6,229 nt of DNA, from positions 1 through 6,229 of the forward strand of contig DAOWAG010000085.1 in assembly GCA_030634715.1 (NCBI GenBank). The letters run 5' to 3'. Below are positions 1 to 5,550 of this stretch, in pieces. This stretch comes from Candidatus Aegiribacteria sp. (GTDB taxonomy: Bacteria; Fermentibacterota; Fermentibacteria; Fermentibacterales; Fermentibacteraceae). The translations under genes and the position numbers were made by a program. Below the pieces are notes generated by a model that ran no database searches, was not told the DNA's origin, and saw only the letters and a list, made by a program, of their open reading frames with translations. Position 1 is the first letter of the stretch, and each line of letters opens with the position of its first letter.

Positions 1-687
1 AGTATAGTTCTCAGGCAGTATGATATTCAGTCCGCTAACATCGGATATGGATCTGAGAACAGTCCGAAGATTTGCATCAACCACATCGACAGTGATGTTT
101 CTTCCCCCTGTTCCAGCCCATTCCACCGGAAATCCATCATCAACCTGCCGATGGGCTTCACTTATCCTTACACCTCTGGAAGCTGTGGAAACCGTACGTC
201 CGGATAAACTTGTTGATCCAGGAGAAGACAGCGGCGCGACATCTCCGCCTGTGATGACCGGTTCAACATATTCAGAAGTAGCTGACCAGGACGCAAATGG
301 AATTCCTGAAGGATCTGTCTGCATTTCAAGGGTAAGTATATTGCCATTGAGAGAAGCAGTGTAGTTAATCAACTCACCATTGACATCGATGATAATTCTT
401 ACAATTCCCTCGGGTGGCGCCTTGTACTGACTGGTTCTGATTGACGCTACACCACCTCTCCCGACGGAGAAGTCTGTAGAAGGAAGTGCATGAACCGCAT
501 TTCCAATATCCAGTACAATCCTCATTGGATCTGTCAGCAGGAATCTTTCGTAGGAGATTGATTCATCAGCAGTAATTGTGACGAGAGTCACGTTGCCGCC
601 GGGCACAACCGATATATCGGTAACCCTATACGCCACAACCGGCATGGCCAGAAGTAGCAAAAGACTACATACGGTAAACAGACGCAT
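1..687 (-). CDS. pilQ: PilQ-type secretin, N-terminal part (runs off the left edge)
   Basis: This frame is open from the ATG at 687 to the window edge and gives 229 residues with no stop, so it is the 5' part of a longer gene. Residues 1-19 are a signal peptide (Arg, Leu-rich core, cleavage near VVA/YRV). Residues about 22-122 fit an AMIN domain, the PilQ module that binds peptidoglycan, including a DPMRIVLDIG segment and a second RIIIDV strand. A Ser/Gly/Thr-rich linker follows (about 123-195). From about 197 the sequence matches the start of the secretin N0/STN domain, with DANLRTVLRSISDVSGLNI as key segment. AMIN followed by N0 is the PilQ order. The beta-barrel pore region lies outside the window. 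The start overlaps the pilP stop by one base (TGATG), with AAGGTGG six bases upstream, implying translational coupling. Role by family: outer-membrane channel for the pilus. The identification is firm from domain order and operon position. Confidence 0.9.
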   Translation of the reverse strand, partial: MRLFTVCSLLLLLAMPVVAYRVTDISVVPGGNVTLVTITADESISYERFLLTDPMRIVLDIGNAVHALPSTDFSVGRGGVASIRTSQYKAPPEGIVRIIIDVNGELINYTASLNGNILTLEMQTDPSGIPFASWSATSEYVEPVITGGDVAPLSSPGSTSLSGRTVSTASRGVRISEAHRQVDDGFPVEWAGTGGRNITVDVVDANLRTVLRSISDVSGLNIILPENYT

Positions 688-2099
688 CACAAACCACCTT
701 CTTCATGTAGACGCAAGGAGTAGATGGTAGGAATTGTGGTCTCCCCTCCACCTCTCGCGCTATAAGTAATAATAACATACTGAATTACAATAACTTCATT
801 ACTGGTAATCTCGGCCACGTGTGAATTGTATGCCAGGTCAGTTCCCTCGTAGAGTATGTACGAAACACCAGCTCCATCCTCAACGAGTGCCTGGTCTCCA
901 CCAATTGGATCAAGCGTGATTCCAACAAGCCTGAATTCCTCAATCGAAATACTCGTGAGATCGCGTCTTGCATCTCTTCCTGCATCAGTGAATTCAGTGA
1001 AGGGATCAGGTCTGATGGAAACGGATTCATAGATTCTGAAGGTTCCGCTTCCAGCCATGATCATATCTTCGACAGATTCAGTTGAACCCTGCATACCTTC
1101 CGTATTCTGACCGGCCAATGAGCAGAATACCCTTTCTGTTTCGTAATATGGTAAGTTTGTTTCAACTGATCCAAGTTCGGTAAATACAGTTATCCCATGA
1201 TCATCAATTGCCCAGAACGGTTCATTGAAATGATCAAGAGAGATAAGTTCTGAAGGAGTGAAAGATGGAGATTCAGCAAGGATTTCGTCTGGTTCAATCA
1301 CCGAAGAAATGCCTTTCTCCGTCATAACAAGTCCATCTGAATACAGATAACCGCTTGAATGATAATTCCATTCATTCGCGGCCGTTCTAACGAAAATGCT
1401 TTCATCTGATCCCATATAAAGAATGTTCTGTGATACTGCGAGAACATACCCGTCAGGAGAATCCTCGAATTGCCACAGATCAATCGACGGATCCAGAAGA
1501 GCAATTCCACCTCCCTGAAGTCTGAAGATCCAGTCCTGTCCGATCAGCTGTAGATCTCCCGCTGGGTCCAGCTGCGGACTTGGAGAAAATACTTCAAATC
1601 CACTTTCATTCTTTATAGCAATAGCGCCTGTCTCATCCAGTATAGCAATGCTTCCACTCTGAATCTCAAGCTCCACAGGTCTGAATCCTTCAGGGAGCGC
1701 TCCAGGTATTATTTCACAATCTTCCACACTGAATGCGAGTAATTCATTTTCTGTCAGAAATACCGGATTTTCATCCAGAATATCGAAGTCGAGGACATCT
1801 TCAACCCCCTCGATGAAGTATGCCTTCCATTTAGCGTTAGAGACACTGAACTCAAGAAGGTTACCTCCGTCGAACAGCAGCCAGGTTGAAACTTCTCCTG
1901 CTTCAGTAAGCAAAGGCGGAGCCTGTGACAACGTCAGCTCGATCCAGCCATGAACATCCGGATGAGAGACTACCGTGACAGGAGTATCTGTCTGATCCGT
2001 CAGAACTGCTGAATCATCGGATTTATTACATCCGGAAAATATGAACACTCCCGCAGTCATCAGAAGGGCTGCTGTGAGTGTTCCTTTTGAAAAACTCAT
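687..2099 (-). CDS. pilP: Large lipoprotein: propeller-like N-terminal region fused to a C-terminal PilP domain
   Basis: 470 residues from the ATG at 2099. An in-frame ATG at 2174 lies inside pilO, and the lipoprotein signal begins at 2099, so 2099 is chosen. Residues 1-23 are a signal peptide ending FSG before Cys24; Phe at -3 is slightly atypical for a lipobox. Residues about 355-466 match PilP: an RPDPF segment (family RDPF), SIEEFRLVGI, ALVEDGAG, a YEGT turn, then alternating strands to a final SLRL. PilP joins PilN/PilO to the secretin in the periplasm, and the position between pilO and pilQ is canonical. PilP is normally about 170-180 residues. Here about 300 extra residues (roughly 50-350) precede the PilP domain. 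They contain about seven loosely repeated units starting near 71, 104, 144, 184, 216, 253 and 286, each with hydrophobic strands around a short Gly/Asp turn, suggesting a seven-bladed beta-propeller. The PilP domain call is fairly strong; the propeller is inferred by eye. Confidence 0.82.
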   Translation of the reverse strand: MSFSKGTLTAALLMTAGVFIFSGCNKSDDSAVLTDQTDTPVTVVSHPDVHGWIELTLSQAPPLLTEAGEVSTWLLFDGGNLLEFSVSNAKWKAYFIEGVEDVLDFDILDENPVFLTENELLAFSVEDCEIIPGALPEGFRPVELEIQSGSIAILDETGAIAIKNESGFEVFSPSPQLDPAGDLQLIGQDWIFRLQGGGIALLDPSIDLWQFEDSPDGYVLAVSQNILYMGSDESIFVRTAANEWNYHSSGYLYSDGLVMTEKGISSVIEPDEILAESPSFTPSELISLDHFNEPFWAIDDHGITVFTELGSVETNLPYYETERVFCSLAGQNTEGMQGSTESVEDMIMAGSGTFRIYESVSIRPDPFTEFTDAGRDARRDLTSISIEEFRLVGITLDPIGGDQALVEDGAGVSYILYEGTDLAYNSHVAEITSNEVIVIQYVIITYSARGGGETTIPTIYSLRLHEEGGL

Positions 2100-2115: not shown

Positions 2116-2673
2116 CTATGGCTGCACGAAGGCTGAAACTGTAAAAGTCGCAACCATATTGTCGTAATTTCCATCAGAAGCTTTCTGCTGGATAACAGAC
2201 AGGTTGGATACGGAAGTAATCATCATCTGCTGAGTAAGTTGATCTAGATATACTCCGAGCCTGTGAAAACGTCCTGAAAGCTGCACCTGCCAGCCATAAA
2301 TAAGATAATCCCCCTGAGTTACAGGAGGCAGTGGTGTAAGAACGATGATCTTAAGCCCGCTGTTTTCAGCCTTCTCTGTCAGCATATCGAGAACTTCATC
2401 CTGATCATAGCTTCGAGGAAGATATCTATCGAGTTCCGAAAGCTGCTGAGTTAGAAGATTGATCTCCTGTTCGGTTATTGCCATGTCAGCTGATGTTCCG
2501 GATTGAAGCGAAATAAGCTCTGCCTGTTTCATCTCAAGATTCTGTTCGGCGAGTTCTATTCTGTCAACAAGATCGGCGGATATCGATCTCGGGTAGAAGT
2601 AGATTAGTGCCACAATCAGAAGAACACCGACTATTAGAATATAAAACCTGGGGTCTCGAAGGTATTTATTCAT
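2116..2673 (-). CDS. pilO: PilO, type IV pilus inner-membrane alignment protein
   Basis: 185 residues, slightly shorter than well-studied PilO proteins (about 200-210). A short cytoplasmic N-terminus (1-9) is followed by one transmembrane helix (about 10-27), then a periplasmic coiled coil (about 32-83, rich in Glu, Gln and Leu), then a ferredoxin-like domain (about 85-185). The segment QVQLSGRFHRLGVYLDQLT followed by ITSVSNLSV matches the PilO signature in which a Gly-x-[YF]-His strand-helix precedes a 'vsnlsl' strand. By family knowledge PilO pairs with PilN through the coiled coil and the periplasmic domains, and the pair holds PilP. The ATG at 2673 follows AAGGGGGGTGAA, a strong though closely spaced ribosome binding site. 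The gene is preceded by a 42-nt gap after the small lipoprotein gene and followed by a 16-nt gap before pilP. Confidence 0.9.
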   Translation of the reverse strand: MNKYLRDPRFYILIVGVLLIVALIYFYPRSISADLVDRIELAEQNLEMKQAELISLQSGTSADMAITEQEINLLTQQLSELDRYLPRSYDQDEVLDMLTEKAENSGLKIIVLTPLPPVTQGDYLIYGWQVQLSGRFHRLGVYLDQLTQQMMITSVSNLSVIQQKASDGNYDNMVATFTVSAFVQP

Positions 2674-2715: not shown

Positions 2716-3138
2716 TCAGGACCCACCGGATCCGGATTCCTCGACGAAATCTGTCAGACTGATGGAATAGAGTGACAATGTGTCACCCCCGAAGATCGTA
2801 AAGTATTCAGAATCACCATATTCGTATGTTTTATTTCCGTGGAATGCTGTAACAGCAAATGTAGCACTGCCGGGAGTGCCACCGAATGATTCCTCTCCCA
2901 TTTCCGGGTACAACTGAATCTCAATTACAAACTCACCTAAAGCATCAGTCGTTACAACATAAGTTTCCTGGGTTCCAATAGTCATCACACCTATACCATC
3001 GGCAAATTGGCTAAATGTTGAATCAAAATAGATAGTGCCGGTCACCCATATCCTGGTATCCTCCATACCGACAGGGTTACACCCGGCAGCTAAAATAGCA
3101 AGCAACAAAGCCGCTGCAGATATTATCTTTATCCTCAT
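2716..3138 (-). CDS. Small lipoprotein of unknown function inserted between pilMN and pilO
   Basis: 140 residues. The N-terminus is a lipoprotein signal: MRIK, a hydrophobic Ala/Leu/Ile stretch, then LAAGC with Cys20 as the predicted lipidated residue. The mature part is beta-rich: strands at about 30-36 (WVTGTIYF) and 60-76 (YVVTTDALGEFVIEI), then ATFAVTAF (about 92-99), and a Gly/Ser tail. The VTGTIYF ... TTDALGEFVI pattern resembles carboxypeptidase-regulatory-like or other Ig-like beta-sandwich domains (G-x-[IV] strand, then 'tDa.GeF'), but I do not recognise a named family. The start overlaps the pilMN stop as ATGA, with GGGGAGG four bases upstream, so it is very likely translated with pilMN. 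It is not a standard PilMNOPQ member. From its place it may decorate or stabilise the periplasmic or outer-membrane part of the pilus machine, which is inference only. Confidence 0.85.
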   Translation of the reverse strand: MRIKIISAAALLLAILAAGCNPVGMEDTRIWVTGTIYFDSTFSQFADGIGVMTIGTQETYVVTTDALGEFVIEIQLYPEMGEESFGGTPGSATFAVTAFHGNKTYEYGDSEYFTIFGGDTLSLYSISLTDFVEESGSGGS

Positions 3139-4967
3139 AATTCCTCCCCTGTATCTCCGGGATGATTCTGCGATTCTTCTTCTACATCAGAGTCAGCGAA
3201 AATACTGCTCAGATCCCTTGAAGATCCGGCAAATTCACCAACCATAGATGATAACGCTACAGGATTTACGCCAATCGTCATCTCGAAATTATATCTTCTA
3301 CTTCCACTTCCAGTTACGTTTGCCGCTGAAGCGAGCGTGTAAGTCTGTCCATAATCTGCAAGCGAGAATAGAGGTGTGTGCCCATCCGGCATTATTTCAA
3401 CAATCTCACGCTGAAATTCAATAATATCTCCCCAGGTTTTCGCTACACCGGAGATACTGATTTCACGCGGAGCTAAGACCATTCTGGTAAGATAAATACC
3501 TTTCTCACTTGCAGAGCCCGGTGCGATTACATCGGGATAGATCGCTCGGCAAAGGTATTCAACAATGTAGACTGTATATTTCTGATTGAGTGAAAGATCA
3601 AGGATCTGTTGCTGTTTTCTTTCAACCATATTTCTCAATCGTTCAGCTTCGACCTGCTGATCAAGCTGCAAGCCAAGCTGAGATATCTGCTCTGTGACCA
3701 GATCAATTTCCTGGTTCAATTCCGTTTCGTGAGTCTTCAGATCCTGATAATCCATATATGCTATCACTCCACCGGCAATGAGACCAAGGAATGGAATAAT
3801 ACAGAGAATTGTCAGAATGGAAGATGGTTCAGCGGCTGAAGGGATTCCGGGAGCAGCTCTTCTCTTGCCTTCAGGCTGTTCAAGTATGTTGATATCAACC
3901 ATGCTGGTCTCATATCCCCGCAGCGCGAGTCCGATGGAAACTGCAAGTACCGCGCCCAGGGAGTCAAGATTCTCATCACTGATGACAGTTTCGGGAACAG
4001 TAATGTTCCTGAAGGGCTGGAAGTGCTCAACTGGAAGTCCGTGCTGCTCACTGAGTATCGTCGCGAGCCCGGGCATAAGTGAGCATCCTCCGCTGATGTA
4101 CATTTTATCTATTCTGGTGTTCTCACCGGAAGCCTGATAAGTTATGAAAGATCTCCTGATACTTGTAGACAATTCCTCAATAACCCTGCCGATCGCAGTA
4201 TGCACTTCTTCCGAAGATACACCGTCCGGCACATTACCTTTGAGAACACCAAGGGCAACGTCGTATTCAAAACCAAGCGATCTCTGCAGGGCTTCAACAA
4301 ATCTCGATCCTCCTATCGAAAGATCGCGGTTGAAACTTGGGAGCCCTTCACGAACAACAACCATGTTCGTAACCTCGGCACCGATGTTCAGGATTGTTAC
4401 GCATTCATCACCTGCTGGCCTGTAGGCGTGCTGATAAACCCTCTGCAGAGAAAACTGCTCAAGTTCAATTGTAGATGGCTTCAGTCCAGCTCCTTGCAAG
4501 ATACCTCGATGAAGGTCAACTACTTCTTTCTTGGCTGCGACCAGCAGCACCTCCATCTGTCCCGGAGAGATCTCAGGGTTAATTATCTTGAAATCAAGAC
4601 TGACTTCATCGATCCTGAATGGGATATGCTGTTCAGCTTCCCATTGGATTGCCTGCCGAGCCTCTTGTTCTGACATTTTTTCCATTGGTATCCTTCGAAC
4701 TATCACACTTCTTCCGGATACCGCACTATGGATATTTCTACTACTGGTTTTAATACCGGCCTGCCGTACGACATCGTGAACAGTATCTATCAGATGTTCG
4801 CGGTTTACGACTTCACCATCTACAATCGTACCAGGAGATAACTCCTGGATCGCATAACTCGACAGGGTTACTGCTTTGCTTGATCCTGTCAGTTGTACAA
4901 CTTTGATTGAATGGCTGCCGATATCAAGACCAACAGTTCCCCCGCCTGATTTTCCGAAGATGAACAT
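3135..4967 (-). CDS. pilM/pilN: PilM-PilN fusion protein of the type IV pilus alignment complex
   Basis: 610 residues. Residues about 8-352 are PilM, an actin/FtsA-fold cytoplasmic protein: phosphate-1 motif GLDIGSHSIKVVQL (13-26), phosphate-2-like ILNIGAEVTNMVVV (192-205), and adenosine motif YISGGCSLMPGL (290-301), ending SIGLALRG as free PilM proteins do. At 357-370 comes VDINILEQPEGKRR, the counterpart of the PilN N-terminal 'INLLP' motif that docks on PilM. PilN continues with a transmembrane helix (about 384-404), a coiled coil (about 408-458), a periplasmic ferredoxin-like domain (about 460-570) and an acidic tail (580-610). Free PilM is about 350 residues and PilN about 180-220, so both look complete. 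No stop or frameshift separates them. The ATG at 4967 has GAGGAAGGGAAG just upstream. In the phosphate-2 motif Asn194 replaces the Asp usual in PilM. Role: scaffold linking cytoplasmic motor components to PilO/PilP. Confidence 0.92.
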   Translation of the reverse strand: MFIFGKSGGGTVGLDIGSHSIKVVQLTGSSKAVTLSSYAIQELSPGTIVDGEVVNREHLIDTVHDVVRQAGIKTSSRNIHSAVSGRSVIVRRIPMEKMSEQEARQAIQWEAEQHIPFRIDEVSLDFKIINPEISPGQMEVLLVAAKKEVVDLHRGILQGAGLKPSTIELEQFSLQRVYQHAYRPAGDECVTILNIGAEVTNMVVVREGLPSFNRDLSIGGSRFVEALQRSLGFEYDVALGVLKGNVPDGVSSEEVHTAIGRVIEELSTSIRRSFITYQASGENTRIDKMYISGGCSLMPGLATILSEQHGLPVEHFQPFRNITVPETVISDENLDSLGAVLAVSIGLALRGYETSMVDINILEQPEGKRRAAPGIPSAAEPSSILTILCIIPFLGLIAGGVIAYMDYQDLKTHETELNQEIDLVTEQISQLGLQLDQQVEAERLRNMVERKQQQILDLSLNQKYTVYIVEYLCRAIYPDVIAPGSASEKGIYLTRMVLAPREISISGVAKTWGDIIEFQREIVEIMPDGHTPLFSLADYGQTYTLASAANVTGSGSRRYNFEMTIGVNPVALSSMVGEFAGSSRDLSSIFADSDVEEESQNHPGDTGEEL

Positions 4968-5207: not shown

Positions 5208-5236
5208 TTGACTCGTAATGTCAAATGGAATATCTT
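5208..5236 (+). promoter_or_regulatory. Weak promoter candidate for the ribbon-helix-helix-like gene
   Basis: TTGACT (5208-5213) matches the -35 consensus at five of six positions. After a 17-base spacer, TATCTT (5231-5236) matches the -10 consensus at four of six. The predicted transcript would start about 5242-5243, leaving only some 11 nt before the ATG at 5254, so the ribosome binding site would sit at the very 5' end. A second TTGACT at 5122-5127 lacks a good -10. Confidence 0.22.
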
Positions 5237-5243
5237 CCCGCTC

Positions 5244-5248
5244 GGAGG
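5244..5248 (+). promoter_or_regulatory. Ribosome binding site that fixes the start at 5254
   Basis: GGAGG with a five-base spacer to the ATG at 5254. The in-frame ATG at 5218 lacks a comparable site and would place this GGAGG inside the coding sequence, so 5254 is preferred. Confidence 0.75.
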
Positions 5249-5253
5249 TTCAA

Positions 5254-5550
5254 ATGAAAATGAAAAAATCATCTGATTTCGTTTCAAACATTTCGGATAT
5301 ACAGGAGCATTCAGATCCTACTGTCAGATTAACTGTTCCTGTCAGACCAGACCAGGAGGAACTGCTGACGAGAATCGCTCGAACCATTACTCAAAACCGT
5401 GATAACGAGCACAGAGCGCAGAGAATTACAAAGGCAACTATTATCAGAGCATACATCGACGCTCTTTCAGCATTACTAATAGACATAAGTAATATCAGTG
5501 ATGAAAGAACTCTTCTTCAGCGCATTCTTGATTATCTGAATAAGAAATGA
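5254..5550 (+). CDS. Small ribbon-helix-helix-like DNA-binding protein (putative regulator)
   Basis: 98 residues from the ATG at 5254. After a polar, Lys/Ser-rich N-terminus (1-20), a single strand TVRLTVPV (about 23-30) is followed by helix 1 (about 33-47, DQEELLTRIARTI), a long polar loop (48-57, with Arg, Asn and Asp), then helix 2 (about 59-76, TKATIIRAYIDALSALL) and a further C-terminal helix (about 82-96). Strand-helix-helix with 'TKATIIRAYIDAL' resembles CopG/Arc-type ribbon-helix-helix proteins, where paired strands bind the major groove. The inter-helix loop is longer than usual. It is transcribed away from the pil operon across a 286-bp region with several repeats, so it may control itself, the pil operon or both. 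No toxin gene adjoins it, which argues against a plain antitoxin. The fold is inferred from pattern, not from a recognised family member. Confidence 0.75.
   Translation: MKMKKSSDFVSNISDIQEHSDPTVRLTVPVRPDQEELLTRIARTITQNRDNEHRAQRITKATIIRAYIDALSALLIDISNISDERTLLQRILDYLNKK

Follow-up and report, generated by a model that had tools for sequence, protein, structure and literature searches.

Analysis of the window (the whole stretch of 6,229 nucleotides from Candidatus Aegiribacteria sp.) showed that its type IV pilus operon encodes, at 687..2099 of the minus strand, a lipoprotein of 470 residues in which a predicted seven-bladed beta-propeller is placed between the lipid and the probable PilN/PilO-binding arm. 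With a probability of about 0.6, the protein is the PilP of the Fermentibacteria type IV pilus, carrying the propeller between its lipid anchor and a complete PilP module and acting as a non-catalytic protein-binding platform. The gene position, the propeller fold (predicted), the PilP-type C-terminal domain, the phylum-wide conservation and the purifying selection were all computed.

The 470-residue ORF of the original prediction proved to be a real gene, with homologues of similar length in Ca. Fermentibacteria. A clear ribosome-binding site, GGGAGGAG, ends 5 bases ahead of the ATG, and a longer version of 495 residues merely uses an upstream in-frame ATG within pilO. The protein search returned 121 homologues at E ≤ 0.001, and dN/dS in the propeller was 0.07-0.23 (10 pairs, two of which have more than one synonymous change per site), showing that the propeller is under purifying selection. 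For the window and L001, dN/dS was higher in the HR domain (0.346) than in the propeller (0.183). A frameshift or gene-prediction artefact was ruled out, as 36 of 42 genomes carry the ORF open from end to end, and so do the 114 sequences that were aligned (457-486 residues each; the shorter P0034, P0035, P0043, P0057, P0068, P0090 and P0119 were left out of the alignment). The gene was split over two overlapping frames in one genome alone (G028).

The minus strand of the window carries pilMN, a gene for a small lipoprotein, pilO, the propeller-PilP gene and the start of pilQ. The pilM gene (3135..4967, 610 residues) matched PilM_2 at E 1.7e-64 over residues 13-351 and, in an addition to the original prediction, its product has a PilN-like C-terminal part (PilN, E 0.018 at 489-522, below the cut-off). 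The NCBIfam Amuc_1101 family also matched this product in part, at E 4.4e-47, below its cut-off. A single protein with PilM followed by a PilN-like C-terminal part is built like GspL of type II secretion; pilMN ORFs had 578-637 residues in relatives with a complete gene, and L016 had two separate ORFs. A divergent small ORF upstream of pilMN (5218-5550, plus strand, 110 residues) has by eye the look of a ribbon-helix-helix DNA-binding protein, had no Pfam match over the cut-off, and is clearly matched by an ORF at the corresponding position in L125 (2658-3059). The small lipoprotein (2716..3138, 140 residues) lies between pilMN and pilO, where a lipobox ORF was found in all 18 tabulated loci. 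Pfam scans gave no family over the cut-off for this lipoprotein, and one relative had a carboxypeptidase-regulatory-like match below it (PF13620, E 0.033).

The propeller-PilP gene itself is flanked by PilO and AMIN matches, placing it between pilO and pilQ. Its upstream neighbour pilO (2116..2673, 185 residues) matched PF04350 over the cut-off (E 6e-12), and the 5' part of pilQ (1..690), which exits the window, encodes an AMIN domain (PF11741, E 1.6e-10) and begins with a GTG that overlaps the stop codon of the propeller-PilP gene. The gene was present in 18 of 21 Fermentibacteria loci. A pilO-sized ORF lay ahead of it in all 18, and an ORF in the pilQ position followed in 15, the other 3 loci ending earlier; this ORF was checked by family as PilQ in L013 only, where AMIN, STN, Secretin_N and Secretin were all over the cut-off (STN/N0-type domain, E 1.3e-6). 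The L013 PilQ (10261-12012) has a single AMIN domain, and PilQ of Fermentibacteria is short, with 581-587 residues in the complete pilQ-position ORFs. The gene after pilQ in L013 (12029-12562) matches the methyltransferase family Cons_hypoth95 (E 2.3e-26), and ORFs of 172-180 residues come after pilQ in other loci.

Four parts were recognised in the protein. Residues 1-24 (2028..2099) form a lipoprotein signal peptide ending at the predicted lipid-acceptor Cys24, which was found in 114/114 aligned sequences. At +2 after this cysteine, 95 of the 114 have Gly, 12 have Asn and 2 have Asp, and such a mixture does not decide between the inner and the outer membrane. Residues 1-45 had a pLDDT below 50 in the AlphaFold2 model. 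The predicted propeller covers residues 46-318 (1146..1964), and the linker of residues 319-382 (954..1145) had no stable predicted fold, although its part 351-382 is nearly invariant. Residues 383-466 (702..953) form a PilP HR-type beta-sandwich, the expected docking domain for the secretin N0. The two linkers flanking the propeller, of about 20 and 65 residues, are both predicted to be flexible.

Roughly seven repeats had been noticed in the N-terminal part, and seven strand-turn-strand hairpins could indeed be read from the sequence within residues 60-312, spaced by about 30-40 residues, with turns near 79, 118, 158, 198, 233, 263 and 302. Structure prediction, named beforehand as the check on a propeller, returned one. 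AlphaFold2 gave 27 strands of at least 3 residues within 50-308 and a further one of two residues at 251-252; in this model the count fits seven four-stranded blades closed into a ring, with strand 50-55 closing the last blade. Sequence matches to known families were weak, the best in Pfam being PQQ_2 (E 0.0028), with 4 of 93 members matching PQQ_2/BamB. Among PDB sequences the family profile matched an iron-citrate-binding protein best (E 0.04), and propeller chains were matched at E 1-2. One member (P0105) carries the precomputed Pfam label PF23381, which the Pfam scan did not return.

The propeller is the most variable folded part of the protein, with a mean entropy of 2.22 bits against 0.73 for the HR domain and 0.72 for residues 351-382 (114 sequences). 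Five of its residues (G51, W52, W91, W244 and W296) were invariant in 114/114 sequences. A total of 23 propeller positions were conserved in at least 85% of the 114, and 20 of these were G, W, P, L or V, the exceptions being D203, E313 and T314. This mostly Gly/Trp/Pro/aliphatic conservation is read as that of a binding platform and not of an enzyme; an enzyme function was set aside because conserved polar positions are lacking. The propeller is also strongly acidic, with a median net charge of -34 (range -46 to -10, n=114), and the 16 most acidic of 116 mechanical ORFs above 300 residues in loci L001-L019 were all propeller-PilP. Such a charge weighs slightly against anionic peptidoglycan as a ligand, and likewise against tight propeller-propeller packing.

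The PilP motifs quoted in the original prediction were all present: RPDPF at 363-367, EEFRLVGI at 387-394, ALVEDGAG at 404-411 and SLRL at 461-464. The last 110 or so residues had been called PilP-like; they are, and the conserved part is slightly longer, at about 351-466. Behind a variable stretch that separates it from the propeller, the segment 351-382 reads FRIYESVSxRPDPFTEF..RD.RR, with 18 of 32 positions at least 95% conserved, and is likely the equivalent of the PilN/PilO-binding arm. The RxDPF motif is common to 35 PilPs of other groups, and its proline was the sole invariant column over the 41/41 rows of alignment A2, which holds 35 outgroup rows (5 of 40 outgroup hits, L039, L040, L042, L062 and L064, were left out). 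Given the roles of the arm and the HR domain in ordinary PilP, the roughly 150 residues behind the propeller make up an ordinary PilP module in full.

Neither Pfam nor NCBIfam gave a match to the window protein at E ≤ 10, so its nature was deduced from its relatives and its fold. At E ≤ 0.1, Pfam PilP (PF04351) matched 38 of the 93 propeller members, the best of them at 5.6e-4. Its cut-off of 25.6 bits (an E of 7.2e-4 equals 20.0 bits) was reached by none of the 93, nor by 8 of 10 outgroup ORFs in the pilP position, of which 7 matched at E ≤ 1 and two passed the cut-off. Searched against PDB sequences at E ≤ 10, the family profile alone hit no PilP, and the PDB matches of A2 identify its 35 outgroup rows as PilPs, not the propeller protein. 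With weak Pfam matches and no PDB match to PilP, membership rests on intermediate sequences and on the fold. When the C-terminal domain was compared by hhalign with 39 pilP-position ORFs (all of the 40 outgroup hits but L042), the probability was 98.6 (E 1.2e-15). As these 39 had been picked with the same profile, controls were run, giving a probability of 0.3 for the reversed profile and at most 2.3 for 30 column-shuffled profiles. The six strands of the C-terminal domain in a model without outgroup PilPs coincided with those of a model including them, and profile comparisons, the second check named beforehand, together with fold comparisons place this part within the PilP family as an HR-type beta-sandwich. 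A C-terminal domain outside PilP, in an unrelated lipoprotein encoded in the pil operon, would agree with the missing family match and with the family profile's lack of a PDB PilP hit, but is barely credible against the hhalign result and its controls, the PF04351 matches and the strands shared by the two models.

The same architecture had been proposed for a search in neighbouring genomes, and in the phylum of the L008 genome (Ca. Aegiribacteria) 41 of 42 genomes matched; the match spanned the whole profile in 36 and part of it in 5. Partial copies in G026 and G032 were cut at contig ends, that in G025 extends to 5 bases from a contig end, the two parts in G033 sit at the ends of two contigs, and the fifth is the two-frame gene of G028. 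Only G039 gave no match, which its contig end explains: pilMN, the small lipoprotein and pilO are there, and the contig stops 77 bases past pilO. The profile search returned 120 family members, and even the weakest of them scored E 1e-113, which gives the family a sharp edge; the protein and profile searches each scored about 8000 candidates sharing most words. Source names among the matches listed were Ca. Aegiribacteria, Sabulitectum, Fermentibacteraceae, Fermentibacterales and Fermentibacteria, most rows being nameless. Full-length members with a source name among the matches listed were labelled 'hypothetical protein', and the C-terminal pieces P0128 and P0132 carry the source name PilP. 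PilT-family ATPases were found at E ≤ 1e-60 in 41 of 42 genomes (39 over the cut-off), which makes a retracting pilus likely.

A propeller-less PilP was sought with profile A2 in 13 Fermentibacteria genomes, where all 12 strong matches were the propeller-PilP gene. Among 18 weak matches (E 0.004-0.094), 17 covered the N-terminal signal-peptide part (model positions 4-73), and the remaining one (G005:C32, E 0.009, model 137-174) lay in a 964-residue frame. Short members of the family (P0126-P0132, 118-202 residues) start in the linker or the last blade; P0129 is the G032 copy, whose contig end was seen, and the others are probably cut copies as well. A search with the 35-row PilP alignment (7997 candidates scored) gave, in the best 120 of 128, one Myxococcota PilP (P0125) and otherwise the propeller-PilP family or its pieces. 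Phylum-wide scans beyond the Fermentibacteria covered two phyla. In the phylum of L022 (Ca. Eisenbacteria), A2 matched 39 of 47 genomes. All seven stop-to-stop frames of at least 368 residues and one of 312 were read there; 6 of these 8 (L114, L115, L117, L118, L120 and L121) hold low-complexity sequence rich in Ala, Thr, Pro and Lys before the HR domain, and the propeller profile matched none of the 8 at E ≤ 1. The other two, L116 and L119, look like out-of-frame extensions, and the 591-residue frame of L042 holds an ordinary PilP behind apparently out-of-frame sequence. PilP frames in the five-genome phylum with L025 and L026 had 224-289 residues.

On the preferred reading, the lipid would keep the protein in the inner membrane (this membrane being assumed), the conserved RPDPF arm would hold PilN/PilO and the C-terminal domain would dock to the PilQ N0, the last two as in ordinary PilP. 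The propeller would then sit in the periplasm near the inner membrane, alongside the PilN/PilO stalks, as a binding platform present once per PilP subunit; its partner may be the small lipoprotein of the operon or some other envelope protein. A more tentative extension, somewhat improbable as it stands, is an extra periplasmic layer: the propellers, one per PilP, would surround the channel at its inner-membrane end and form a deck that docks the pilus machine to a further envelope protein, for which the small lipoprotein is a candidate. A passive spacer, adding only bulk or distance in the anchor-proximal arm and having no specific partner, is unlikely, but the low-complexity sequence in the same place in the 6 long Eisenbacteria frames keeps it alive, and the propeller is far more variable than the PilP part (2.22 against 0.73 bits). 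Yet the inserted part is folded and of near-constant length (whole proteins of 457-486 residues, n=114), has five invariant residues, is complete in 36 genomes and is under purifying selection.

PilP occurs in many copies per pilus machine, each with a propeller here, and with flexible linkers predicted on both sides about a dozen propellers might stand side by side as an extra periplasmic ring around the pilus. Such a collar is doubtful, as the acidity (median -34) disfavours tight homo-packing and the propeller is the most variable folded part. A single propeller is smaller than needed to surround a 5-8 nm pilus, and so a lone one would not encircle the filament either (pilus diameter as given in PMC5805733). 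An assembly factor resembling BamB (outer-membrane lipoprotein) or Ycf48 (photosystem II), whose propeller aids the insertion or maturation of a partner such as the secretin and whose lipid may lie in the outer membrane, was judged very improbable. BamB and Ycf48 chains were among the Foldseek matches listed, 4 of 93 members weakly matched PQQ_2/BamB, and Asp at +2, which in E. coli signals the inner membrane, occurs in only 2 of 114 members. BamB, however, has eight blades, whereas the strand count of the model fits seven; many unrelated propellers ranked equal or higher in Foldseek, and the +2 residues vary in ordinary PilPs too.

PilP bridges the two halves of the pilus machine, that of the inner and that of the outer membrane, and a propeller of about 270 residues on its arm across a phylum suggests that the alignment complex can accept a large folded module at its base. 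The fusion is a natural experiment on the tolerance of PilP and well suited to cryo-tomography, where extra density close to the inner membrane is predicted.

Among known systems, the propellers of BBS1, streptogramin B lyase and WDR91, all seven-bladed, were close to the Fermentibacteria domain, as were those of Ycf48, PorZ and the BT4673 sensor, with identities to known propellers of 6-14% among the matches listed. To our knowledge no seven-bladed propeller of this kind is joined to PilP, and titles and abstract starts of open-licence papers showed no report of a PilP with a beta-propeller or WD40 domain. The homology-region domain of GspC in type II secretion (3oss, 6hcg, 7oio) is among the closest systems, but GspC has an N-terminal transmembrane helix and then the HR domain, whereas the present protein has a lipobox Cys in 114/114 sequences and a propeller before the HR domain. 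Type IVa PilP (PF04351; 3jc8, 2y4x, 2lc4, 2ivw, 4av2) shares the lipobox, the position between pilO and pilQ, the RxDPF arm and the HR beta-sandwich, and differs by lacking the 270 or so extra residues that form the propeller between anchor and arm; the 470 residues compare with 163-316 in 39 outgroup ORFs. Ordinary PilP is described as a long disordered arm with one small domain (PMC4471445), the unstructured N-terminal region binding the PilN/PilO pair and the C-terminal domain the secretin (PMC5805733, PMC4471445). PilW of Thermus thermophilus also departs from standard PilP in the pilO-pilQ gap; there, according to PMC3724824, PilP is replaced by a protein without T4P/T2SS homology, whereas in Fermentibacteria PilP is kept and enlarged. 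Another protein of type IV pili with a beta-propeller is PilY1, whose C-terminal propeller is a modified one with a calcium site (PMC4471445).
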